Made by a program: the position numbers and the translations under genes. Shown here in pieces: positions 5,021 through 38,705 of a stretch of 64,000 bases of DNA (position 1 is the stretch's first letter; each line of letters starts with the position of its first letter). The stretch is from Acidihalobacter aeolianus (lineage in GTDB: Bacteria > Pseudomonadota > Gammaproteobacteria > DSM-5130 > Acidihalobacteraceae). Location of the stretch: the NCBI RefSeq assembly GCF_001753165.1, contig NZ_CP017448.1, positions 1,444,462 to 1,508,461 on the forward strand. The letters are read 5' to 3'. Under the pieces are notes generated by a model. The model worked only from the letters and a program-made list of their open reading frames with translations. It did no database searches and had not been told where the DNA came from.

Positions 5021-5443
5021 TTAATGCGTGACGGCCTGCTCGGTTTCGGCGGCCGTCAGGACATCGATCACGCGTCGCCAGTTGTCGATATCGAAATCGA
5101 TATCCATCTCGTCGAAATATTCCTTGGCGTTGTCGACCATATCCTGCATCACCAGGGCCACATAGCGCGGTGCGGCGTCCGACTGCGTGATCTTCTCCGG
5201 CACGGCAGCCTCGAAATACAGCGTATCGCCCTGCTTGTCGTAGCCGCCCATGCGCATCCCCGTAAACGGCGGCGCTTCCTGCTTGCTCGACAGCATAAAG
5301 GTGATGTCCAGCGTCGGCCCCGCCGGGAACCGCCCCTGGCGATTCTCCATGGCCGCATGCGCCGCCACGAATGTGATGGCCTCGTCGATCGGACTCTTCG
5401 CCATGTCCTGGCTCGGACTGTTGATGCTGATGAATAGCTTCAT
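5021..5443 (-). CDS. Unknown 140-residue protein under a sigma-54 promoter
   Basis: I do not recognise this protein. It is 140 residues, acidic, without a signal peptide, membrane segment or cysteine motif. It begins MKLFISINSP and ends with an acidic helix-rich part (DMVDNAKEYFDEMDIDFDID). The ATG at 5443 is preceded on the minus strand by AGGGCG as a weak ribosome site. The frame is open further upstream, but that stretch would overlap the promoter described below. A sigma-54-type promoter sits about 40 bp upstream of the start. Its GC content and codon use match the core genome. Its placement beside nifJ and the other sigma-54 genes suggests an accessory role in nitrogen fixation or anaerobic metabolism; this is inference. 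Confidence 0.75.
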   Translation of the reverse strand: MKLFISINSPSQDMAKSPIDEAITFVAAHAAMENRQGRFPAGPTLDITFMLSSKQEAPPFTGMRMGGYDKQGDTLYFEAAVPEKITQSDAAPRYVALVMQDMVDNAKEYFDEMDIDFDIDNWRRVIDVLTAAETEQAVTH

Positions 5444-5481
5444 GGTAATTCGCCCTGCTACTGGGTGTGTACGCATCAGGA

Positions 5482-5497
5482 AGCAATAACCGAACCA
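5482..5497 (-). promoter_or_regulatory. Sigma-54 promoter of the 5021-5443 gene
   Basis: On the minus strand the sequence reads TGGTTCGGTTATTGCT, with GG and GC separated by exactly 10 bases as sigma-54 RNA polymerase requires. The predicted start of transcription is near 5471, giving a leader of about 28 bases. No TGT-N10-ACA NifA-type site was found in the 250 bp upstream, so the activator is unknown. Confidence 0.65.
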
Positions 5498-5773
5498 GTG
5501 GGGGAAAGGGTTTATTGGACGTGAACGATCTGGGATTTTTTTCTTTCGATTCAAGTATCAACGCAAGAATACAAGGTGGCCAGACACCAGGGTCACGCGC
5601 CTTGCGGCTCTGGGATGACGTCAGGTTACGGGAGTTTGTGTGCGCTTTGTCACTAATGCGGCAAAATAACGCTGTGATCGTAGAGGTGTCATGGGCAAAG
5701 CGAAAAGGCTCTGAGAGATTGGTATGAGTTTGATGGTATTGAGAAGTTACGTAATATGTGAAGGAAATACTGG

Positions 5774-5794
5774 AACTCAATTTAAAATTGAGTT
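5774..5794. repeat. 21-bp perfect palindrome
   Basis: AACTCAATTT and AAATTGAGTT flank a single central A. It lies 228 bp upstream of the oxygenase gene. It could be a binding site for a dimeric regulator or a short hairpin; no T-run follows, so a terminator is less likely. Confidence 0.55.
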
Positions 5795-5870
5795 GTTGCT
5801 GGCGTGCAGACTAGGTTGAGGTTGTGATTGCCCGGAGTGATGTTTTTTAGGAAGCTTAATTGGTAGATAT

Positions 5871-5902
5871 TTGAGAAAAGTGGCCTTTACCACTTTTCTC
5901 AA
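5871..5902. repeat. 13-bp perfect inverted repeat, TTGAGAAAAGTGG
   Basis: TTGAGAAAAGTGG (5871-5883) is repeated inverted at 5890-5902 with a 6-base spacer. It lies 119 bp upstream of the oxygenase start. Related half-sites (TGAGAAAA at 8641-8648 and ACTTTTCTCA at 8715-8724) occur on the other side of the oxygenase/IS66 segment. Operator, hairpin or segment-boundary roles are all possible. Confidence 0.55.
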
Positions 5903-6021
5903 TGGTACTATCAGATGCAGCGCTTAATGCTGACCGGCTTAACTCAAAGTCAATAAGTACCTGTGAAATCCACCTGGAAGCTACCAATGTCAATCATTAC
6001 ACAAAAACATAAGGAATAGTT

Positions 6022-6834
6022 ATGGAGCTCAGAGACGTAATCAATCCGAGATGGCTTGATGCAGAACACCTTAATAATAACTACATAAGCGCATCACCAT
6101 TCCCTCATGTGGTTATGGAGGATTTTATTAACGAGACTTTGCTCGAAAAGGTCGCTGATGAGTTTCCCGATCTTGCCAAAGCAAAAGATGAAGTTCATAA
6201 ATTCGATAATCCGAGGGAAATCAAGCTCGCTAGCAAAGGAATGCAAGCCTTAACACCCAGCGCCGCCTATTTAACATCCTATCTTCAATCAGATCTATTT
6301 TTGAAATGGCTAAATACTCTTACCGGTATCAAGGAACCGTTAATAAGTGATCCATATCTGGCTGGCGGTGGGTATCATGAGATTAAAAGAAATGGGTTGT
6401 TAAAGGTTCACGCAGATTTCAATAAACACCATTTACTTGATCTTGATAGAAGGCTTAATTTGCTTTTGTATTTAAATAAAGATTGGGACGATGAATGGGA
6501 TGGAACACTTCAGCTATTTGACTCGTCGATGAGTGTGCCAATTCAAAAGATTTACCCGAGATTCAATACGGCTGTTATCTTTACTACCACATCATTTACT
6601 TATCATGGTCATCCTGATCCTTTGAAATGTCCAAGTAATCGGTCTAGAAGATCACTGGCATATTACTACTTCTCGACAGGACGTCCAAATAATGAAGTTT
6701 CTTCAGATAATCATTCAACCTTATTTAAAGAGCGAGAGGGGGAAACATTCAAAACGAGGAGGATTGGTGTGAAAGATGTGATACGAGAAATCACCCCCCC
6801 AATTTTGATTCGAGTTGTTAGACGCATTTTGTAG
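6022..6834 (+). CDS. 2-oxoglutarate/Fe(II)-dependent oxygenase (prolyl hydroxylase-like)
   Basis: The 270-residue protein has the iron-binding triad of this family: H130 and D132 in the HADFN motif and the distal histidine in YHGHPDP (H195 or H197). It is followed by an arginine (R209/R210, RRSLAYYYF) that would bind the 2-oxoglutarate carboxylate. Members hydroxylate amino acids or sugars using O2 and 2-oxoglutarate; relatives occur in capsule and O-antigen gene sets. The substrate here is unknown. Start ATG 6022 follows AAGGAATAG as ribosome site. The gene is clearly AT-richer than its neighbours and stands alone before an IS66 element, so it was probably acquired by transfer. Confidence 0.85.
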   Translation: MELRDVINPRWLDAEHLNNNYISASPFPHVVMEDFINETLLEKVADEFPDLAKAKDEVHKFDNPREIKLASKGMQALTPSAAYLTSYLQSDLFLKWLNTLTGIKEPLISDPYLAGGGYHEIKRNGLLKVHADFNKHHLLDLDRRLNLLLYLNKDWDDEWDGTLQLFDSSMSVPIQKIYPRFNTAVIFTTTSFTYHGHPDPLKCPSNRSRRSLAYYYFSTGRPNNEVSSDNHSTLFKEREGETFKTRRIGVKDVIREITPPILIRVVRRIL

Positions 6835-6862
6835 CGCGGATATGCGATCACTTTGTCATTTT

Positions 6863-8566
6863 GTAACTACTCAGCTAATTCTCAGAGATCGCCAGAGCAA
6901 AAGCCGGTAGCTTGCGATCGAATACTAGGCGCAACGCCTCCGAAGCCGTGACCCCCTGCTTTCGGCAGGTCGATAGATATCCCCGTATGCGGCAAAACAT
7001 CGCGGCACCCTCCAGGCTGCGGAAGCAGCCGGAGATCTTCTGCTGCACTTTGGTCATACGGATATCGTTCTCCGCCTGATTGTTCGTGAACGGCACATTG
7101 ACGTCCACCATGAAACGCAGCACATCGTCTTCATAGGCCATCAGACGCTCCAGCAGATTGCGGGCCTTGCTCCGCTTGATCCGCCCCCGAGGCTTGTTGT
7201 CGGGTGGTTTTTCCGGCTCAGGGCATTCCAGTTGCCCCGCCTCGAGCACATCTCGGTAGCGCTGCCGGTAAGCATTGGCCTCGGTCAGCGGCAGGATGCC
7301 GCCAGCGTTCTCGACGGCCTGATGAATCTCTCTGAGCAGCTTGCCCATCGCTTCCGCCCATTGTTGTCCGTCCTGCTCGAATGCTCGTTCCAGTTCGCGC
7401 AGGTGGTGGGCATTGCACAGGGCATGGGTGCAGTCCCGATAACGGTAATAGGGTTTCCAATGGTCATGACACAGCACACCGCGGAACCGTGGCAGGATCC
7501 CGATCGCGTCCATCGCCTCCTGGCCTCGCTTACTGTGGACCTGATAATGCGTCCAATCAGCATTGGACAGACCATGCAGCCAATGGCGTTTGCCATCAAT
7601 GTTGACCCCGGTCTCGTCGGCATGAGCGGACACGGCTTTGGCCAATGCCGTTTTGCTGATCGCCTCAAAGGCCGCCAGGCGGGTAAATGCCTCGCGATTG
7701 AAGTTCACCAGTGAACCATCGCTCAAAGGGATGCCCAACTGATCGGCAAAGTAATCCTGGATCCGCTTGTAGGGCAAGAGCTGATATTGGGACAGATAGA
7801 CGGCATGGGCCTTGAGGCCGGAACCATACTGCACCTTCTTATCCACCCCTTCCGGGAATGAAGCCACAAAACGTTGGCCTGATTCATTCTCCAGGATCTG
7901 CGCCCGATACTCGGTCACGATCCGGCTGATGTCGATATCAAAAACCTGGCGAGTCTCGAAACCCGCCTCGGTATAGCAGCCTTTCGGCAAGCGACGACGA
8001 TCGATCTTGAGGACCTCGATCTCATCGGGATGCTCGACCGGGCGCAAGGTCTTGCCCACGTGCCCCGGCTGGCCACCGGAAGGTCGGCTTGAGCGCACAC
8101 GCTGGCTGCGTGGCCGATTGGGATCCGATGCCGGCGGCTGACTGCTGTTGCGGCTATTGAGCCCGAGACGGTTGAGTAACACGACGAACAACATGAGCAT
8201 CATCTCGATACTGGCGCGGAGTGCCGGAGATAGGTCTTTCTCCTGCTCCAGTTGCGCCCTGACCTGTGCCAGGGTGATCTCGATATCGACGCCGTCGATC
8301 CGCACGCAAGACTGCTCCAAAGAAGTAATGAAGCTATTATCTCACGGGTTTTGAAGTGCCAATTTTCTCGTTTGTAAGGCGATCTGGCGGCGTAAAATAA
8401 TTGACTGACGGTGGGGCAGTGCCTCGCGTGATGTCGCAAGGAAGACTACGCCTCTGTCGCTTTCGGAGACCAATAATCGCACTCGTTACAGCGCCGCCAT
8501 ATTTTCAAAAAAACTACCAAAAACCCTGTCAAGTACTTTTTGTAATTATTTTCACTGAGTAGTTAC
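6863..8566. mobile_element. IS66-family insertion sequence (single-ORF, ISBst12-like)
   Basis: The element is 1704 bp. Its ends are the 12-bp inverted repeats GTAACTACTCAG (6863-6874) and CTGAGTAGTTAC (8555-8566), starting with the GTAA typical of IS66. The flanking 8 bp are GTCATTTT (6855-6862) and GTAATTTT (8567-8574). They match at 7 of 8 positions, as expected for the 8-bp target duplication of this family after one mutation. Only tnpC is present; tnpA and tnpB are absent, as in the ISBst12 group. About 240 bp upstream of the transposase are noncoding. Confidence 0.9.
6875..8320 (-). CDS. tnpC: IS66-family transposase TnpC
   Basis: The 481-residue protein shows the family layout: an N-terminal leucine-rich helix, the NSRNSSQPPASDP motif, a zinc-binding region, and a DDE catalytic domain (HADETGVNIDGKRHW; HDHWKPYYRY; the late E in PFTNNQAENDIRMTKVQQK). 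The stop codon abuts the terminal repeat. The start appears to be TTG at 8320, because an in-frame stop lies 24 bp upstream and the next Met is about 40 residues inside the conserved region. No strong ribosome site is visible. The frame is intact, so the element may still be active. Confidence 0.9.
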   Translation of the reverse strand: MEQSCVRIDGVDIEITLAQVRAQLEQEKDLSPALRASIEMMLMLFVVLLNRLGLNSRNSSQPPASDPNRPRSQRVRSSRPSGGQPGHVGKTLRPVEHPDEIEVLKIDRRRLPKGCYTEAGFETRQVFDIDISRIVTEYRAQILENESGQRFVASFPEGVDKKVQYGSGLKAHAVYLSQYQLLPYKRIQDYFADQLGIPLSDGSLVNFNREAFTRLAAFEAISKTALAKAVSAHADETGVNIDGKRHWLHGLSNADWTHYQVHSKRGQEAMDAIGILPRFRGVLCHDHWKPYYRYRDCTHALCNAHHLRELERAFEQDGQQWAEAMGKLLREIHQAVENAGGILPLTEANAYRQRYRDVLEAGQLECPEPEKPPDNKPRGRIKRSKARNLLERLMAYEDDVLRFMVDVNVPFTNNQAENDIRMTKVQQKISGCFRSLEGAAMFCRIRGYLSTCRKQGVTASEALRLVFDRKLPAFALAISEN

Positions 8567-8638
8567 GTAATTTTTTCGTCGATGCTCTGCTATCTCGATT
8601 CACAGGACGTTGCGTGTGAAATGCAGATTGCCCGATTA

Positions 8639-8724
8639 TTTGAGAAAATGAGCGGTCAGTGTCTCGAAATGACGGATTAATATGTGATATATGCCAACGG
8701 ACTGGTCGGTTAGCACTTTTCTCA
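8639..8724. repeat. Separated half-sites related to the 5871-5902 palindrome
   Basis: TTTGAGAAAATGAG starts at 8639 and GCACTTTTCTCAT ends at 8725. They match the two arms of the inverted repeat at 5871-5902 but are about 66 bp apart. They lie between the IS66 element and the MetF-like gene, in 218 bp that hold no gene. Significance is uncertain. Confidence 0.35.
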
Positions 8725-8784
8725 TATCACGGGAATATCCATAATTCTCAAGTTAACTCTATATCTGCGTTCCTGGAGCCAGAG

Positions 8785-9555
8785 TTAATCTGTGACTAGG
8801 CCGGCTAGATACGCAGCCAGGTCTACCCGAATCGGCATGAAGTAGACATTGCCTTCAAAATCCCGGGCGGCGCGAACGGCCTTGGCGGCAAAGTTTCGGT
8901 TCCATTCCAGGGTGGGTGCGAAGTTCGAGGGAAAGACCACCCGATTCGTCGTTTCCCAGTATGCCCGCGAACGATCCCCCAACACGGGGGCGATTCCCCA
9001 GAATATGTTGTGGCCCTGCAGCATTTCCGCCCAGATGGCCATCAGCCGCAGATCGAAGATCGGTTGCGTGAAGAAGCCGTCGGCCCCGGCATCGAGCTTG
9101 CGGTGTATGGCCGTGAGTTCGTCGCGGAAGCCGAGCCGGTAGGGGTCGAGGGCGGCATACACCCGAACGTTCGGGCAACACTGCTTGAACCGCCGAATGA
9201 CGTCCTCGCTGCTGTTCGGATAGGTTCGGTGGCTCAGGTCGTGGGGCGGATCGCCGCGGATGACGAGGATCTCTTGAAGCCCTGTCGCCAGGATGTCCTC
9301 GGCCATCGGCGGATCGCCGACCGGCGGAATGTCGATGGCCCGGATGTGCGGAATCGAGGCGGGGAGGATGTTCTTGGTGAGCTTGCAGGCCTCCCAGCTA
9401 CGCATCGGGAAGCGGATGAGATCCGGAATGTTGAAGGCGGTTGCCTGCGGCATGACGGAGCGAACCGTCCTCGCATCGTTGAGCAGGTCCTCGGCATTTC
9501 GCGGGATCAGTTCGACTGAAATTCTCATTGAGCCATTGTCCAACGACGCCTTCAC
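8785..9555 (-). CDS. Methylenetetrahydrofolate reductase-like protein
   Basis: The 256-residue protein follows the MetF TIM barrel: an early ISVELIPR strand (the family's conserved Glu), the RGDPP motif that contacts FAD, and FFTQPIFD matching the substrate-binding Gln strand. It is shorter than typical MetF (about 290 residues) and lacks a usual N-terminal EFFPP motif, so it may be a paralogue using another folate or C1 substrate. The longest frame starts at a GTG (9555); an ATG at 9528 directly before ISVELIPR is an equally good start, and neither has a strong ribosome site. It is divergent from the flavodoxin gene; no sigma-54 promoter was seen on its own strand. Confidence 0.75.
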   Translation of the reverse strand: MKASLDNGSMRISVELIPRNAEDLLNDARTVRSVMPQATAFNIPDLIRFPMRSWEACKLTKNILPASIPHIRAIDIPPVGDPPMAEDILATGLQEILVIRGDPPHDLSHRTYPNSSEDVIRRFKQCCPNVRVYAALDPYRLGFRDELTAIHRKLDAGADGFFTQPIFDLRLMAIWAEMLQGHNIFWGIAPVLGDRSRAYWETTNRVVFPSNFAPTLEWNRNFAAKAVRAARDFEGNVYFMPIRVDLAAYLAGLVTD

Positions 9556-9675
9556 GGCGGAGGGGACTACTTTGGTTCGTTTGCCGGTATTGTCAATAGA
9601 TCGGCCGACCGGCTTTACGGGCGTTTCGATTAAGTGGCGATATCCGGAAATCCAGGCCGATCGCTCGGTTCGGTC

Positions 9676-9691
9676 TGTACCAAACCCGACA
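9676..9691 (+). promoter_or_regulatory. NifA-type upstream activator site (TGT-N10-ACA)
   Basis: TGTACCAAACCCGACA fits the NifA consensus exactly. It lies 72 bp upstream of the flavodoxin sigma-54 promoter, a usual distance for a looping enhancer-binding protein. Confidence 0.6.
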
Positions 9692-9762
9692 AATACCCGC
9701 CTTCAAGCCGACGCGCCCCAAAGGCCATCGCAAAAACCTACTTATAAACAATGGTTAACCTC

Positions 9763-9778
9763 TGGTATGGGGTTTGCT
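9763..9778 (+). promoter_or_regulatory. Sigma-54 promoter of the flavodoxin gene
   Basis: TGGTATGGGGTTTGCT has GG (9764-9765) and GC (9776-9777) exactly 10 bases apart. The predicted transcript starts near 9789, leaving a leader of about 100 bases. The AAA+ promoter at 10650 is identical except for one base. Confidence 0.8.
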
Positions 9779-9887
9779 TCGCCCTTCATGTACTCAGACG
9801 ACGTTCGTTTCGGTCAATCGTCCAGCGACGGACGCTGCACAGCCCGGATCGGGAAACGTCCCGTTAGCCCTTGGGAGGCGAAGCACC

Positions 9888-10439
9888 ATGAACAAGATCG
9901 GCATCATTTTCGGTACGGATACCGGGACCACGCGTCTGATCGCCAAGAAGATCGCGAAGAAGCTGGGCGATCTGGCCGACAAGCCGGTGAATATCAACCG
10001 CATCGGCCTCGATGAGCTGATGCAATACGACTTCCTGATTCTCGGCACGCCCACCTACGGCTACGGGCAGCTGCCGGGCAAGGATACGAATATCGCCGAC
10101 GGCAGTTGGGCGGAGATTCTGCCGGAGCTGCAGAAGGCGGATCTCAGCGGCAAGCTGGTGGCGCTCTACGGTCTCGGCAATCGGGACAAGTACGGCGACC
10201 GCTTCGCCGATTCGCTGTTCTACCTCTATGATGCCGTCAAGAACGCCGGCGCGACCGTCATCGGCAGCTGGGGCACGGAGGGGTACGACTACCAGTTCTC
10301 CAAATCCGAGGTGGACGGGCGTTTCGTCGGGCTCGTGATCGATCACAACAGCCAGGGTCTGCTGACGGATCAGCGCATCGACGAGTGGCTGGATCGGATC
10401 ATGCCGCAGTTCGAGCAGCAACTGGCGGCCAGCGCCTGA
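9888..10439 (+). CDS. fldA/nifF: Flavodoxin, probably NifF-type
   Basis: The 183-residue protein is a long-chain flavodoxin. The FMN phosphate loop is GTDTGTTR (residues 9-16), PTYGYGQLPG follows as the first isoalloxazine loop, and GLGNRDKYGDRF as the second. Flavodoxin carries single electrons at low potential. NifJ is its classical reductase and nitrogenase its acceptor in several diazotrophs. The start ATG 9888 has a GGGAGGCG ribosome site. The sigma-54 promoter and NifA-type site upstream support a NifF role. A weak hairpin (about 10459-10489) follows the gene. Confidence 0.92.
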   Translation: MNKIGIIFGTDTGTTRLIAKKIAKKLGDLADKPVNINRIGLDELMQYDFLILGTPTYGYGQLPGKDTNIADGSWAEILPELQKADLSGKLVALYGLGNRDKYGDRFADSLFYLYDAVKNAGATVIGSWGTEGYDYQFSKSEVDGRFVGLVIDHNSQGLLTDQRIDEWLDRIMPQFEQQLAASA

Positions 10440-10501
10440 GACCCCGATCGACGCTGAATGCGCGTGAGGGGCGTCACGGCCTCTCGCGTCGTGGGGATGT
10501 G

Positions 10502-10517
10502 TGTCGACCCACGCACA
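10502..10517 (+). promoter_or_regulatory. NifA-type upstream activator site, distal
   Basis: TGTCGACCCACGCACA matches TGT-N10-ACA. It lies about 133 bp upstream of the sigma-54 promoter of the AAA+ gene. Confidence 0.55.
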
Positions 10518-10562
10518 ACCTTGATCGGCAACGGCGAAGCAGATCCGTGACATGGTTGGGCG

Positions 10563-10578
10563 TGTGTCAAAGCCCACA
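10563..10578 (+). promoter_or_regulatory. NifA-type upstream activator site, proximal
   Basis: TGTGTCAAAGCCCACA matches TGT-N10-ACA. It lies about 72 bp upstream of the sigma-54 promoter, the same spacing as at the flavodoxin gene. Two sites in tandem are common at nif promoters. Confidence 0.6.
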
Positions 10579-10649
10579 ATCTCAGGCGCTCCGACCGACA
10601 TGCCTCAGGTGGCGCCTGAAAAAACCATTCAAAAACAAGCGACAATCAC

Positions 10650-10665
10650 TGGTATGGGCTTTGCT
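10650..10665 (+). promoter_or_regulatory. Sigma-54 promoter of the AAA+ ATPase gene
   Basis: TGGTATGGGCTTTGCT has the required GG-N10-GC spacing (GG 10651-10652, GC 10663-10664). The predicted transcript starts near 10676, about 53 bp before the ATG. Confidence 0.8.
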
Positions 10666-10728
10666 TCGTCCTTTTCCCGTATCCACTGACGAGGGTGCGG
10701 CCGTACCGGCCTGCGACACAATCCAGCG

Positions 10729-12438
10729 ATGAAGCTCCAGCTCGAACGATCCTATGTAGAGGCCATGGTCAGCGCGTTTCCCGACCTGAGTCCGCTGTCC
10801 GAACAGTTGCGCTTCGGCAATCGCGCCGAGGTCGGCATTCATCAGCTTTCGGCGCCCGCGTTGACCTACCTGCACGACCTGTATCGGCAGGCCGGGCCGG
10901 TGGCTTACGGCCGTGCCGCACAGATCGCCACGCTGCGCGAGGCATTCAACGACGATGGGGCCGAGCGCTTCGGCAGCGACGATCTGGAGCAGGTGCTTCC
11001 GGCGCTGGCGCAGTATCTGGTCGACGGCGGCGTGCGCGGCTGGCTGTTCCGCGCGACCAGCTCGGCCAAGCCGCTGGCCTACGTGATCACGCGCCTGGAC
11101 TACACGCCGCCGGGCGACGAGGAAGCCGGGCGCATCCTGCTTGAGCTGAAGGCCAACGCCTACGGCAAGATCGTCACCGAGACGTTGATCATTCGCAACC
11201 GCGACATTGTCGGGCGCACCGTCGCCGAGATCCTGGCCCATCGCGGCTACCTCAAGGAAAGCGCGGAACTGCTGCGCGCCTACGACGAATCCACCGAGCG
11301 CTATTTCGCCTGGCGGGCCGATTACGGCAGGCAGTTCTCGGCGAGCGGCACCGGGTTTTATGCCGAGGACCCGACGGCCAGCCATCGCACCACCGACTGG
11401 ACGCGCAAGGAGACTGTGGTGCTGTCGACCACCGGCAATGCCGCGCGGATGGTCAACGACGAGGAGATCCTCGGCCAGCGCGTCACGGGGTTCGAGGGCT
11501 CGGGCGACATACTGCGCGCCTATCTGCGCAAGGCCGCCAAGAGCATGCGCTACGACGAGAAGGTGGAGAGCCGCATGGAGGCCTCCAACGAGGCCATCCC
11601 CAAGGGCATGTTCACCGAACTGCCCGTGCACGGCTACATCCTCATGTTCCACCTCGAGCTGCACCACCATCTGTGGGTCCACGTCGAGGACATGGAGCCC
11701 TACACCTACCAGCCAGAGCTCAAGGAAAAGCTGATCCTGCCGCGCGAGCAGACCGACCTGATCGACATCCTCACCGCCGAGATGGACGTGTTGATGGACG
11801 ACATCGTCGCGGGCAAGTCCGGCGGCACCACGGTGCTCTGCGCCGGGCCGGCGGGCATGGGCAAGACCCTGACCGCCGAGGTGTACTCGGAAATCATCAA
11901 GCGCCCGCTGTACCGCGTGCACTCGGGCCAGCTCGGGCTGAACGTCGGCGAGATGGAAAAGGCGCTCAAGGAGACGCTGACGCGCGCGCAGCGCTGGGGT
12001 GCGGTGATGCTGATCGACGAGGCCGACGTCTACATCAAGCGGCGCGACGACAATATCGCCGCCAATGCCGTGGTCGGCGTGTTCCTGCGCGTGCTCGAAT
12101 ATTTCAACGGCCTGCTGTTCCTGACCACCAACCGGGTCGACGACATCGACGAGGCGATCATCTCACGCTGCATCGCGATGATCCGCTACCACCCGCCCGA
12201 GGAGAGCGACCGGCGGCGCATCTGGCAGGTGATGACGCGCCAGTTCGAGCTGGACGTCGATGAGGCTCTGCTGGAAACGCTGGTGACCGGTTTTCCCGAG
12301 GCCACCGGGCGGGACATCAAGGGGCTGGCCAAGCTGGTGGCCAAGTTCTGCCAGCACAAACAACTGCCGCCGAACCTGGAGGCTTTCGAACGCTGCGCCA
12401 TGTTCCGCGGCATGGAACTCAGAATCGCCGCCGCTTGA
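10729..12438 (+). CDS. AAA+ ATPase with a large novel N-terminal region, NifA/sigma-54 controlled
   Basis: The 569-residue protein has a C-terminal AAA+ module. It shows Walker A GPAGMGKT (373-380), Walker B VMLIDEAD (D430, E431), sensor 1 at N468 (LTTNRV), a candidate arginine finger at R480 (ISR) and a sensor-2-like GRDIKGL (R528). The first 340 residues carry no motif I recognise. They include a histidine-rich patch (HLELHHHLWVHVED, 308-321), and no membrane segment is visible. Such proteins remodel or unfold partners. The regulatory sites place it with nitrogen fixation; a role in maturing, repairing or protecting nitrogenase is inference only. The 58-residue gene 30 bp downstream is probably its operon partner. 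Confidence 0.85.
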   Translation: MKLQLERSYVEAMVSAFPDLSPLSEQLRFGNRAEVGIHQLSAPALTYLHDLYRQAGPVAYGRAAQIATLREAFNDDGAERFGSDDLEQVLPALAQYLVDGGVRGWLFRATSSAKPLAYVITRLDYTPPGDEEAGRILLELKANAYGKIVTETLIIRNRDIVGRTVAEILAHRGYLKESAELLRAYDESTERYFAWRADYGRQFSASGTGFYAEDPTASHRTTDWTRKETVVLSTTGNAARMVNDEEILGQRVTGFEGSGDILRAYLRKAAKSMRYDEKVESRMEASNEAIPKGMFTELPVHGYILMFHLELHHHLWVHVEDMEPYTYQPELKEKLILPREQTDLIDILTAEMDVLMDDIVAGKSGGTTVLCAGPAGMGKTLTAEVYSEIIKRPLYRVHSGQLGLNVGEMEKALKETLTRAQRWGAVMLIDEADVYIKRRDDNIAANAVVGVFLRVLEYFNGLLFLTTNRVDDIDEAIISRCIAMIRYHPPEESDRRRIWQVMTRQFELDVDEALLETLVTGFPEATGRDIKGLAKLVAKFCQHKQLPPNLEAFERCAMFRGMELRIAAA

Positions 12439-12468
12439 ACGCCGGCGGCCAGACACGGGAGTACCGCA

Positions 12469-12645
12469 ATGGCGGATGTCACCTTCAACGGCATGACCAT
12501 GGAATTCAGCATCGTCGAATTCCAGATGGAAGCCGCTCTCAAGGCCCAGGTCGAGGCTGCAAACCCGGGTTCGAGCGAGCAGGACCTGCTCGACGCCTAT
12601 CTGACGGCGCACAAGGAACACTTCGGCAAGGATTTCCTGCAATAG
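12469..12645 (+). CDS. Small 58-residue protein downstream of the AAA+ ATPase
   Basis: This frame runs from ATG 12469 to TAG 12643-12645 with a CGGGAG ribosome site, 30 bp after the ATPase stop. The product starts MADVTFNGMTMEF and is mostly one or two acidic amphipathic helices (FQMEAALKAQVEAA; DLLDAYLTAHKEHF). It has no cysteines and no signal peptide. Codon use and GC content match its neighbour. It may be a substrate adaptor or subunit of the ATPase; nothing proves that. Confidence 0.7.
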   Translation: MADVTFNGMTMEFSIVEFQMEAALKAQVEAANPGSSEQDLLDAYLTAHKEHFGKDFLQ

Positions 12646-12789
12646 CACGGGCAAGGAGCGGGCGCTTTCCCGCCTGTCTAAGCACGTTTAATGATTGCGT
12701 TGGGCCGGCGTATGGGTATCACAGTGGCCGGGCCACTGGGATTTGATCCCAGCGTCAATCCGTCTGCTCTTAAGGTTAATATGTGTGAT

Positions 12790-12820
12790 CCGCTGGCCTG
12801 CCTGAAGCGCAGGCCAGCGG
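12790..12820. terminator. 12-bp stem hairpin
   Basis: CCGCTGGCCTGC (12790-12801) pairs perfectly with GCAGGCCAGCGG (12809-12820) around a 7-base loop. It lies just downstream of the minus-strand gene at 12837 and between it and the convergent AAA+ operon. No strong T-run follows in either direction. Confidence 0.55.
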
Positions 12821-12836
12821 CGTCATGGGTGCTCAG

Positions 12837-13301
12837 TTACGCCGCGTAGTAGAGCTTGCGCAGTTCGATCACCGTCGGTGCGGTGATCGTCGCGCCGTCC
12901 TTCTGGCGGACGACAATATACATCCCGTCGGCGAAGGTGACCGATTCGCCGGCACCGCCCCAGGCCTTGACGTCGTTCTCCTTGTCCAGCGCCTTGCGGT
13001 AGGCGCCGCCGCTGTAGCTGTTGAAGTCGGCGACCAGACCCGCATGAGGCGGGTTGTTAACCAATCCCCACCATGGCTTGTCCCAGGGATCGAACGACCA
13101 TGTGTCGCCGATCGACTCGGGCGGCAGGGAGCGTTCGGCCAGTCGGCCTTCGATGACAGTATACTGGGTGCGCGCTATGGTCTCGGGTGCGCTGCTTGAG
13201 TTGTGCGACTCGCGGATCTCGAGCACTTCCTCCTGGGTGAATGACTCCATGGCCGGGATGAGCCGGCACCACTCGCCATCGAGCTTGGCATGCTGAAACA
13301 T
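12837..13301 (-). CDS. Unknown 154-residue protein under a sigma-54 promoter
   Basis: I do not recognise this protein. It has 154 residues, is rich in Trp and aromatic residues (DTWSFDPWDKPWWGLV), and has one Cys near the start. It lacks a signal peptide and membrane segments, so it is probably cytoplasmic. ATG 13301 is fixed by a perfect ribosome site (AGGAGG, 6 bases spacing); the open frame further upstream crosses the promoter. A sigma-54-type promoter lies about 50 bp upstream and a 15-bp palindrome covers the likely start of transcription. It is convergent with the AAA+ operon and probably belongs to the same physiological programme. Confidence 0.75.
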   Translation of the reverse strand: MFQHAKLDGEWCRLIPAMESFTQEEVLEIRESHNSSSAPETIARTQYTVIEGRLAERSLPPESIGDTWSFDPWDKPWWGLVNNPPHAGLVADFNSYSGGAYRKALDKENDVKAWGGAGESVTFADGMYIVVRQKDGATITAPTVIELRKLYYAA

Positions 13302-13335
13302 TGTGCCTCCTGTGTTCTCGCAGTGTGTGGGTAAC

Positions 13336-13350
13336 GTGGGTAATACCCAC
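13336..13350. repeat. 15-bp palindrome at the start of the 12837-13301 transcript
   Basis: GTGGGTA and TACCCAC flank one central base. The predicted start of transcription (near 13342) falls inside it. It could be a repressor operator or a hairpin at the very 5' end of the mRNA. A second GTGGGTAA copy precedes it. Confidence 0.5.
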
Positions 13351-13352
13351 CT

Positions 13353-13368
13353 AGCAAGATGTCTACCA
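13353..13368 (-). promoter_or_regulatory. Sigma-54 promoter of the 12837-13301 gene
   Basis: On the minus strand the sequence is TGGTAGACATCTTGCT with GG-N10-GC spacing. No TGT-N10-ACA site was found in the 170 bp upstream, so the enhancer-binding activator is unknown. Confidence 0.65.
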
Positions 13369-35193: not shown

Positions 35194-36340
35194 GGTGGGT
35201 AACCAGGGTTTCGTGGACGTGTCGGGCGATCATCGCATCCTCGTCGGTGGCGACGACCTCGACCGCACAGCGGGCGGTCGGTGTGGAGATTCGTTCGGCA
35301 TGGGTATCGTTGGCCAGGGTATCCAGCTCGATACCGAGATATTCGAGGCCGCGGCAGACCCTCCAGCGCACGGCGGCGGCGTGTTCGCCGATTCCGCCGG
35401 TGAACACCAGTCGGTCCAGGCCGCCGAGCACGGCGGCATAGGCGCCGATCGTCTTGCGTACGTGATAGGCGAACAAGGAAACGGCCAGCCTCGAGTCGGG
35501 CGTATCGTCTGCCAGCAGCGTGGCCATGTTGGCGCTGTGCCCGGAGACGCCTAGCAGGCCGGATTCGCGGTCAATCACATGCTCCAGCGCAGTGGGGTCC
35601 AACCCCTCGGTGCGTGCAAGGTAGAGCATGACGCCAGGATCCAGATCGCCGCTGCGGGTGCCCATCATAATGCCCCCGCTGGGGGTGAAGCCCATGCTGG
35701 TATCCACGCAGCGACCGTGCAGCACGGCGCTCAGACTGGCCCCATTACCGAGATGGGCGATCACCAGGCGACCGAGCGCGCGCGACCCCAGCTTGCGCAA
35801 TACGTATTCATAGGAAAGCCCGTGAAACCCGTAGCGGCGCAGGCCGGCTTCGCGGTAGCGCTGCGGCAGGGGCAGGGTGTGAGCTACCTCGGGCAATGTG
35901 GCGTGGAACGCGGTGTCGAAGCACGCGACCTGGGGGCTGTGCGGAAAATGGCGCAGGGCTGAGCGGATCGCGGCCAGCGCAGGCGGGTTGTGCAGCGGCG
36001 CGAGCGGCGTCACTGCATCGAGGCGATCGAGCAGTTCTGCGGTGACGAGGGCTGGGCGGTCTAGTCCTCCACCGTGTACCACGCGGTGACCGAGTGCATC
36101 GACCCGAGACGGGTTCAGCGCCTGAACCAATACAGGAAAAGCTTCGTGATGATCTGCCAACGGGCGATTTTCGGTATGGCCTTTGACCTCCAATGCGGCT
36201 TCCGGGCGTCCGATTTCGCTCGCGGAGGCCTCACCCAGGCGGATTTCGGTGCCGTCGTCGGCGATGCGGTAGAGCGCGAGTTTGAGCGAGGACGACCCCG
36301 CGTTGACGCACAGGCAGTGCAGCTCTTCCGCCGGGCTCAC
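35183..36340 (-). CDS. ackA: Acetate kinase
   Basis: The 385-residue protein has both family signatures: VNAGSSSLKLALY at the N-terminus and YGFHGLSYEY further on, plus HLGNGASL and GGIGEH near the end. It makes ATP from acetyl phosphate. The GTG start at 36340 overlaps the stop of the MFS gene and the 3' end overlaps the Pta-like gene, a tight three-gene operon. The chain is slightly shorter than E. coli AckA (400). Confidence 0.93.
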   Translation of the reverse strand: MSPAEELHCLCVNAGSSSLKLALYRIADDGTEIRLGEASASEIGRPEAALEVKGHTENRPLADHHEAFPVLVQALNPSRVDALGHRVVHGGGLDRPALVTAELLDRLDAVTPLAPLHNPPALAAIRSALRHFPHSPQVACFDTAFHATLPEVAHTLPLPQRYREAGLRRYGFHGLSYEYVLRKLGSRALGRLVIAHLGNGASLSAVLHGRCVDTSMGFTPSGGIMMGTRSGDLDPGVMLYLARTEGLDPTALEHVIDRESGLLGVSGHSANMATLLADDTPDSRLAVSLFAYHVRKTIGAYAAVLGGLDRLVFTGGIGEHAAAVRWRVCRGLEYLGIELDTLANDTHAERISTPTARCAVEVVATDEDAMIARHVHETLVTHHAE

Positions 36341-37797
36341 GGCAGATCCTCGCTATGGTGTTCTTCGAGCGTCCGGCCATGGCCCTCGATCCGGAACAGC
36401 CAGGTGCTGGCGAGGCCGAGCAGACTCACCACGGCCATCAGCGCAAGCACGCTGGCTACGCCCAGCGCCGACTTGATCAGCGGCAGCAGGAAAACGCCGG
36501 CAGTGGCGCCGACCTTGGCGCAGGCGGCGGCGAAACCCGCTGCGGTTGCGCGTACCTGGGTCGGGAACAATTCGGCGGGGAGAATGTAGGTCGTGCTGTT
36601 GGGGCCCATGTTCATGCTCAGGTTGAACGTCACGAAGCCGGCGAACACCAGTGCGACGTGATGCGCTGCGCCGCCGTCGAGCAGGGTGCTGGATAGGAGT
36701 ACGAGCATGCCGGCCGCCATGCCGGCGAAACCTGCGAGTTGCATGCGGATGCGCCCGAATCGGCTAACGGCCCACAGGCCGATCAGAAAGCCTGCGAGCA
36801 ACGAGATGTCGATGAGCCCGCTGCCGCCCGCCAGCGCTTCGGCACGCGCGAGCGGGTCTGCGGCACTGGCGCCGAAGTGCAGTGAGCCGAGCAGCACGGC
36901 GGTGAACAAGCCTACACCATAGGTGGCGACGTCCATCAGTAGCCAGGGCAGGGTGCTGAGCAGCGTCCGTCGCCGGTAGGCAGGGTGAAACAATATGCCA
37001 AAACCGGGCGGTTGCGACTGCCGGGACAGTTTGGAAACGTGATGGATCTCGTCGCCGAGACGGGTCGCCAGGGTTTCGAGTTTCTGCCGGTCTTCAGGCA
37101 CGAGATTTTCCAGTGCATGTACTGCCTCGCGGTTGCGGCCCTGCCCCATTAGCCAGCGCGGGCTTTCCGGAAGATGCAGTCTCGCCACCAGGAACAGGGC
37201 GGCGAGCACGGCCTCGCTGGCGAAGAAGAGCCGCCAGGCTTGCGGCGATCCGCTCAGGTGGAGCAAGCCGAGGGCGACCACGGCGGCGAGCAACATGCCG
37301 GCCGACTGGCAGGCAATGGTCGCCACCATCATGTGGCTGCGTTCGCGGTGCGGCATGCACTCGGCCACATAGCTGCTGCTGACCGGGAAATCCATGCCGA
37401 TGGCGATGCCTGCGGCAAGCTGTGTCACGACCAGCAGCCAGGGGTCCCAGGCCAACGCGCCGATGACGGCGGCCAGGGTCAGCAGCCCCATGTCGAGCAG
37501 GAACACGGCCTTGCGCCCGAGGCGGTCGGCCAAACGCCCTCCAAGCGAGGCGCCGATCACGGCACCGGCGACCAGGGCGGCACCGAGCAGGCCGGTCTGT
37601 GCCGGCGTCAGTGACATGTCGTGGATCAGCAGGGGGATGGCGATGCCGAGCATGAACACGGATAGCCCATCCAGCAGGGTGCCGCCGGCCGAGAGTCCCC
37701 AGGCCAGGTAATGCGACAGACTTAGCGGAGATCCGTCGAGCAGAGCGATCAGCGTTGCGTGATCCGGATGTACTAAGCTGGGTGCTTGTGGGCACAT
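36337..37797 (-). CDS. MFS transporter (sugar/organic acid porter type)
   Basis: The protein of about 486 residues has twelve predicted membrane segments. The MFS motif GRLADRLGRKAVFLLD lies between helices 2 and 3, and a PESPRWLMGQGR motif typical of sugar and aromatic-acid porters lies in the central loop. The start is uncertain: ATG 37797 is used here, and earlier ATGs at 37836 and 37923 are in frame; none has a strong ribosome site. Its overlap with acetate kinase suggests import or export of an acid or sugar linked to acetate metabolism. Confidence 0.8.
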   Translation of the reverse strand: MCPQAPSLVHPDHATLIALLDGSPLSLSHYLAWGLSAGGTLLDGLSVFMLGIAIPLLIHDMSLTPAQTGLLGAALVAGAVIGASLGGRLADRLGRKAVFLLDMGLLTLAAVIGALAWDPWLLVVTQLAAGIAIGMDFPVSSSYVAECMPHRERSHMMVATIACQSAGMLLAAVVALGLLHLSGSPQAWRLFFASEAVLAALFLVARLHLPESPRWLMGQGRNREAVHALENLVPEDRQKLETLATRLGDEIHHVSKLSRQSQPPGFGILFHPAYRRRTLLSTLPWLLMDVATYGVGLFTAVLLGSLHFGASAADPLARAEALAGGSGLIDISLLAGFLIGLWAVSRFGRIRMQLAGFAGMAAGMLVLLSSTLLDGGAAHHVALVFAGFVTFNLSMNMGPNSTTYILPAELFPTQVRATAAGFAAACAKVGATAGVFLLPLIKSALGVASVLALMAVVSLLGLASTWLFRIEGHGRTLEEHHSEDLP

Positions 37798-38705
37798 ATT
37801 ATGCTGAGTTTCGACACGGGCTGTGGTCGCGATCATAAGATTTGGTCTGAGAGAGACGATGACGAGTCGTGCAAGTGCTTTCCTTATTGATTGAGTATTG
37901 GGTTCTGTGAAGGCTTCGTCCAATCAAGTACTACTGAAGCGTACGCTGTCATGGCCTTGATGAGGGCATTCGACTTCAGATGCGATGTATTGTTGCCGGA
38001 ATGAGTTCGCTCGAGGTATGTGCAACCGCAGCAATAATGATGCCTGATTCTGATTCAGAATATGTGCTTATAGATAAAGATTCGAAAGAGCAGGGAATCT
38101 TTCGTAGATTAAAGTAGTCAACATATCTGTCGCTGTAATCGGAATCACACGTACCAACCCTAGCCGGGGGCAGTGGATCATCACTTTGAGGAGCCTGTTG
38201 GCCAATGATCTGGCGTTTGAGGTTCGGAAACGCCACGCTTGCAGAGTAGTGTCGACCTCTTCTAGGCCAATTATTGAGCGATTTCTCAGGGCAGGATTAC
38301 CGCTTTTTCGGATGAGCACATAGGGAGTTCAAATGATCAAAGTAGTTAGGCGTTGAGCCTCTTTTCAGGGTTAAGCGATAACGAACCGTATGGTGATATT
38401 GATAATAATCCAGTGCCTACATAGGTGTAGTGTCCGCTCGTTGGCTGATCTGTAATCCAACTGCGCTAATATGGCATGCCAACCCTGTAACACGAGGCTT
38501 GTGTGGGAAACCTATGCATTTTCAGGGGCTGTGCCACCAGATTCTCGCGTTCAGGAGGCTGATTGCGCGATAGATTAGACTCTGTCAACATTCACATGAG
38601 TTGTATTGGGCATTTGTGCTTTTCAAGACAGGCCTCCTGATCCTCAGTAGGCTGCCAATTGCTGTGTGATTGGCTTTTAGGTCATTGATAAATAAGGAAC
38701 ACCAA
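37798..38705. other. Gene-free region before the exopolysaccharide operon
   Basis: This 908-bp stretch has no convincing gene. Short minus-strand frames at 37976-38319 lack ribosome sites and recognisable motifs. It must hold the promoter of the exopolysaccharide operon and that of the divergent MFS-ackA operon. A sequence resembling a sigma-54 promoter at 38650-38662 has nine bases between GG and GC where ten are needed. The GC content falls across the region. Confidence 0.6.

Follow-up and report, generated by a model that had tools for sequence, protein, structure and literature searches.

A group of candidate NifA/sigma-54-controlled nif-accessory genes outside the nif cluster of Acidihalobacter aeolianus

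We analysed a 64,000-nt stretch of Acidihalobacter aeolianus DNA (hereafter the window), which encodes a flavodoxin, an AAA+ ATPase with a 58-aa partner and two small proteins, designated U1 and U2. We interpret these as nif-accessory genes under NifA and sigma-54 control, with a probability of roughly 0.82. This reading is built from the architecture of the promoters and their upstream activating sequences (UAS), its conservation, genomic linkage and co-occurrence with nifH, all of them read at the sequence level. The genes under the four promoters are probably helpers of nitrogenase that have so far gone unrecognised, and their locus would be an outlier of the NifA/sigma-54 regulon in a gammaproteobacterial diazotroph.

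Promoter-like sites, NifA sites and the nif genes of the genome

A preliminary description of the window had pointed to four TGG-N8-TTGCT elements and held that their clustering was unlikely to be due to chance. We found all four in place, each on the strand of its downstream gene: before U1 (5497-5482, minus strand, TGGTTCGGTTATTGCT), the flavodoxin gene (9763-9778, plus strand, TGGTATGGGGTTTGCT), the AAA+ gene (10650-10665, plus strand, TGGTATGGGCTTTGCT) and U2 (13368-13353, minus strand, TGGTAGACATCTTGCT). The gaps from site to ATG are 38, 109, 63 and 51 bp, respectively, and all four sites fit the GG-N10-GC form of -24/-12 promoters with TGG and TTGC(T/A) cores. We regard the flavodoxin and AAA+ sites, where the match is combined with a UAS, as predicted sigma-54 promoters, and those of U1 and U2 as promoter-like. 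The exact pattern occurs 7 times in the window against 1.9 expected from shuffles (0 of 100 shuffles reach 7), and 171 times across the genome against 86 for a reversed control pattern. Four sites in 8.35 kb correspond to a Poisson p of 8e-4 when the rate of the genome itself is used and of 6e-5 with the control rate; both values are post hoc, as the interval had been drawn around the sites. With that reservation, the clustering does appear unlikely by chance.

TGT-N10-ACA is the motif to which NifA binds upstream of sigma-54 promoters, and such a UAS is expected at a distance of about 60-200 bp. One perfect UAS was found upstream of the flavodoxin promoter (9676..9691, plus strand, TGTACCAAACCCGACA) and two upstream of the AAA+ promoter (10502..10517, plus strand, TGTCGACCCACGCACA, and 10563..10578, plus strand, TGTGTCAAAGCCCACA). 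At both genes, one UAS stands exactly 87 bp before the promoter. Shuffling predicts 0.04 pairings of TGG-N8-TTGCT with a UAS per window, against the two observed. At U1 and U2, the window has one-mismatch versions of the UAS and no perfect one. The same sigma-54/UAS architecture is present at the organism's own nifH and nifE promoters (L036). Elsewhere in the window, a weaker sigma-54-like site (AGGCATCATTATTGCT, at 38045, minus strand) precedes an MFS transporter gene (36337-37923, minus strand) and has a perfect NifA UAS 104 bp upstream.

The nifHDK genes lie outside the window: nifH (C1:919471, 473.6 bits) is about 525 kb before it, and physical linkage of the window genes to nifHDKENB is absent in this genome and present in relatives. 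The genome also encodes NifA (658 bits), along with about a dozen other homologues of sigma-54 activators. We favour nitrogen fixation as the setting of these genes because two of the promoters have a UAS, the genome encodes both nifH and NifA, and the AAA+ gene and U1 are confined to nifH+ genomes in our sample, often inside nif clusters. The earlier suggestion of a nitrogen-fixation or anaerobic electron-supply region therefore stands in its first part, and general anaerobic electron supply is not borne out.

That suggestion had also drawn in nifJ, which we consider a neighbour of the promoter group and not a demonstrated member. No recognisable sigma-54 or NifA site was found upstream of the operon of gltD-like, nifJ and DHOD-like genes. 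A match at -1339 of this operon was rejected as a promoter, as it sits within the first codons of the coding sequence, and a nifH+ sister genome (G001) is without nifJ. NifJ may nevertheless feed electrons to the flavodoxin.

Conservation and nif linkage in relatives

Conservation of the promoters was assessed against a background expectation of 0.02 TGG-N8-TTGCT sites per 200 bp. A sigma-54-type site with a UAS precedes the AAA+ gene in seven relatives (L042, L043, L044, L058, L059, L062 and L097), the site in L059 being a weaker form that starts with CGG. No close site with a UAS was found before the AAA+ gene in L045-L054, L063, L089 or L096, most of which have the gene inside a run of nif genes. 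For U1, five of seven relatives have the exact pattern before the homologue (L048, L060, L089, L092 and L094), and a UAS is present in all of these except L094. For U2 the count is one of two, with TGG-N8-TTGCT at -62 in L044 and no such pattern found in L059; in both of these loci U2 is near the AAA+ gene.

In relatives, these genes are often found together and beside nif genes. In one locus (L089/G187), the genes for the small partner, AAA+, U1 and the flavodoxin span 6 kb and adjoin nifX-nifN-nifE, after which comes nifHDK, and another (L092/G049) has flavodoxin, U1 and AAA+ adjacent inside a nif region with nifV. In the Rhizobiales contigs L049 and L050 the AAA+ gene is next to the nifB group, and the order in L060 is nifL-nifA-U1-AAA+. 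At some loci, such as L052 and L059, no nif genes were found within 10 kb of the AAA+ gene. Because the module is contiguous and nif-embedded elsewhere, we view the arrangement in the window as a dispersed version of it.

We also examined co-occurrence with nifH in a sample of 369 Gammaproteobacteria, 31 of which have a nifH that passes the curated cut-off. The 8 high-scoring AAA+ orthologues (hypergeometric 1e-9) and the 7 U1 homologues (1.5e-8) are all found in these nifH+ genomes; the values are optimistic, as related genomes from a single class are not independent of one another. The two matches to PF22147, the family of the small partner, are likewise in nifH+ genomes, both beside the AAA+ gene. 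Within the sample, U2 was found in this genome only; it is also present in L044 and L059.

Several further genes were observed around the AAA+ gene. A small unnamed protein (~120 aa, with a CTT(A/T)VVLKILDGKCKMLPGEK-like motif) is encoded after the AAA+ gene or the small partner in L041 (11908-12267), L043 (2072-2437) and L044 (5288-5656), followed in L041 and L044 by a glutathione S-transferase gene. A protein of ~190-240 aa without a Pfam family is encoded beside the nif AAA+ gene in many loci (for instance L089:10899-11459, L050:9242-9952 and L045:1005-1808), and is a relative of the product of gene 8544-9131 of Methylococcus sp. EFPC2. On the nif plasmid of EFPC2, clpP, clpX and lon stand next to nif genes, which would fit a nif package that includes protein quality control in hosts of this kind, an observation that is only suggestive.

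The encoded proteins

The flavodoxin gene (9888..10439, plus strand) encodes a long-chain, NifF-type protein that scores 189.8 bits against TIGR01752 (curated cut-off 146.75) and is 54-61% identical to flavodoxins inside nif clusters. What sets it apart from NifF systems is its position 525 kb from nifHDK in a transcription unit of its own. Between U1 and the flavodoxin gene are a 2OG-Fe(II) oxygenase gene (6022-6834, plus strand) and a transposase-like gene (6875-8320, minus strand, IS66 type by eye). An insertion may have split U1 from the flavodoxin gene, because the two are adjacent in relatives. The gene at 8785-9555 (minus strand) encodes a short, divergent protein resembling methylenetetrahydrofolate reductase, which falls far under the equivalog cut-offs, and reads away from the flavodoxin gene.

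The AAA+ ATPase (569 aa; 10729..12438, plus strand; PF00004, 4.5e-17) consists of an N-terminal part of ~330 aa and one AAA domain (residues 369-482) with Walker A and B motifs and the second region of homology. The N-terminal part matched no known family, and comparison of the predicted model, which is confident at residues about 1-195 and 490-560 only, gave no convincing structural match for it. The best PDB sequence matches are AAA ATPases of the CDC48/Rix7/proteasomal kind, which share the Walker motifs and the second region of homology; the window protein differs from these in its single AAA domain and unrelated N-terminal part, and reaches 35 bits against the CDC48 and PAN families, whose curated cut-offs are 803 and 500. 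No protease domain was matched in it. Close relatives (61-78%) are encoded on 22 named contigs from Alpha-, Beta-, Gamma- and Zetaproteobacteria, and a relative is also found on the EFPC2 nif plasmid.

The wider AAA+ family extends to plasmids and to the giant phages PBS1/AR9. Members there, phrog_29662 ('ATP-dependent protease') and plasmid ATP-binding proteins, are nearly full-length homologues with 33-41% identity, and are not nif-linked where their neighbourhoods were read. In a phylogenetic tree, the nif AAA+ proteins formed one clade with 100/100 support, apart from the plasmid and phage homologues. The AAA+ gene was not found in same-genus genomes, nor did it match anything in the viral scan. 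The same-genus comparison around the MBL gene showed no shared neighbours.

The small partner (58 aa; 12469..12645, plus strand) belongs to the AcrIC5 family, with 47.7 bits against PF22147 (cut-off 27) and 5e-6 against PDB 7yhr, and follows the AAA+ gene in L041, L044 and L089 as well. An AcrIC5 anti-CRISPR gene would be expected on a phage or mobile element, typically with an aca gene. The small partner was instead found in a nif AAA+ context, both in the window and in those three loci. A viral scan gave only distant matches, about 33-36% alike, and no relatives were found on plasmids. The likeness to AcrIC5 (PF22147, PDB 7yhr; PMC7913775) is a family-level match over nearly the whole length; the protein differs in being 33% identical and chromosomal, in a nif AAA+ operon behind a NifA-type promoter. 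The type I-C signature gene csd1/Cas8c was not found in this genome, which therefore offers no local target for type I-C inhibition. Because of this, and because AcrIC5 relatives are distributed over several phyla (PMC7913775), an anti-CRISPR role is unsupported here. A 57-aa protein encoded behind the AAA+ homologue of a Citrobacter plasmid was considered as a counterpart of the small partner and rejected as unlike it by eye. Microviruses from gut samples (phage records MG945373 and KT264799) encode AcrIC5-like sequences, in places without an annotated gene.

U1 (140 aa; 5021..5443, minus strand), a nif-associated small protein, and U2 (154 aa; 12837..13301, minus strand) were assigned to no family by Pfam, NCBIfam or PADLOC, and their PHROGs matches are at chance level at best. 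The predicted structure of U1 (pLDDT 82) has no match in the PDB below E 0.001.

Competing explanations and the proposed role of the genes

The sites could be sigma-54 promoters that answer to another activator or to nitrogen starvation control of the NtrC type, with genes that serve general anaerobic or nitrogen-stress metabolism together with nifJ. This idea would accommodate the U1 and U2 sites, which are without a perfect UAS in the window, and the genome offers about a dozen candidate activators besides NifA. We nonetheless consider it unlikely, given the perfect UAS at the flavodoxin and AAA+ genes, the UAS at U1 promoters in L048, L060, L089 and L092, the limitation of the AAA+ gene and U1 to nifH+ genomes of the sample, and the lack of such sites at nifJ. 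It is more improbable still that the AAA+/AcrIC5-like pair is mobile-element or anti-CRISPR cargo that landed in nif clusters. The nif AAA+ proteins form a single clade that tracks nif, the predicted promoters of the pair are of NifA type, the genome yielded no csd1/Cas8c, and the small protein is only about 33-36% like its viral relatives and has none on plasmids; these points outweigh the AcrIC5-family membership of the 58-aa protein, the plasmid and PBS1/AR9 members of the wider AAA+ family, and the same-genus genomes without the AAA+ gene. Least credible of all is that the TGG-N8-TTGCT sites are random and their clustering a selection effect. The pattern is indeed common in the genome (171 sites), and the interval was picked so as to include all four, but a chance origin is largely refuted, less firmly for U2, by the independent UAS and by the AAA+ and U1 promoters that several relatives share, and the genes are linked to nif.

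We therefore prefer to see these as nif-accessory genes of the NifA/sigma-54 regulon. Under low fixed nitrogen and low oxygen, NifA would become active, bind its TGT-N10-ACA sites and open the sigma-54 promoters of the flavodoxin gene and of the AAA+ gene with its small partner and, less certainly, those of U1 and U2. The flavodoxin would act as electron donor to the Fe protein of nitrogenase. The AAA+ ring, a member of a nif-dedicated clade, would most likely remodel or unfold a nitrogenase-related protein for maturation, repair or turnover, a role to which we give about even odds and which rests on the AAA domain and the genomic context, because the N-terminal part has no convincing structural match. 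Where present, the 58-aa protein may be an adaptor or regulator of the AAA+ protein. U1 could act in the electron-transfer or the AAA+ step, because it travels with both the flavodoxin and AAA+ genes.

NifA regulons that include outlying accessory genes are already known. In Azoarcus BH72, distant outliers with both types of site include the flavodoxin gene nifF1 and azo3791, a conserved hypothetical ATPase, outside the nif cluster (PMC3916325). The two regulons are alike in their -24/-12 promoters with NifA UAS and in their outlying flavodoxin and ATPase, azo3791 being compared by description only, and differ in that the outliers here lie in a cluster, with U1, U2 and an AcrIC5-like gene among them. 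We found no description of the nif-associated AAA+ clade, U1 or the AcrIC5-like partner in the open-licence literature that we searched; two nif papers name AAA proteins, which they describe as being of a different kind.

More broadly, and only tentatively, proteobacterial diazotrophs might possess an AAA+ machine dedicated to remodelling nitrogenase, which in some lineages includes a subunit of the AcrIC5 fold. The AcrIC5 family might then have a cellular branch whose members cooperate with an ATPase and do not act against CRISPR. The AcrIC5-like partner cautions against calling every PF22147 match an anti-CRISPR protein. For the transfer of nitrogen fixation to new hosts, it matters in practice which accessory proteins nitrogenase requires. 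The AAA+ clade and U1 are without a curated function; because they occur in nitrogenase genomes only, within the sample tested, and have NifA-type promoters, a role for them in nitrogenase maturation, repair or electron supply would be directly testable.
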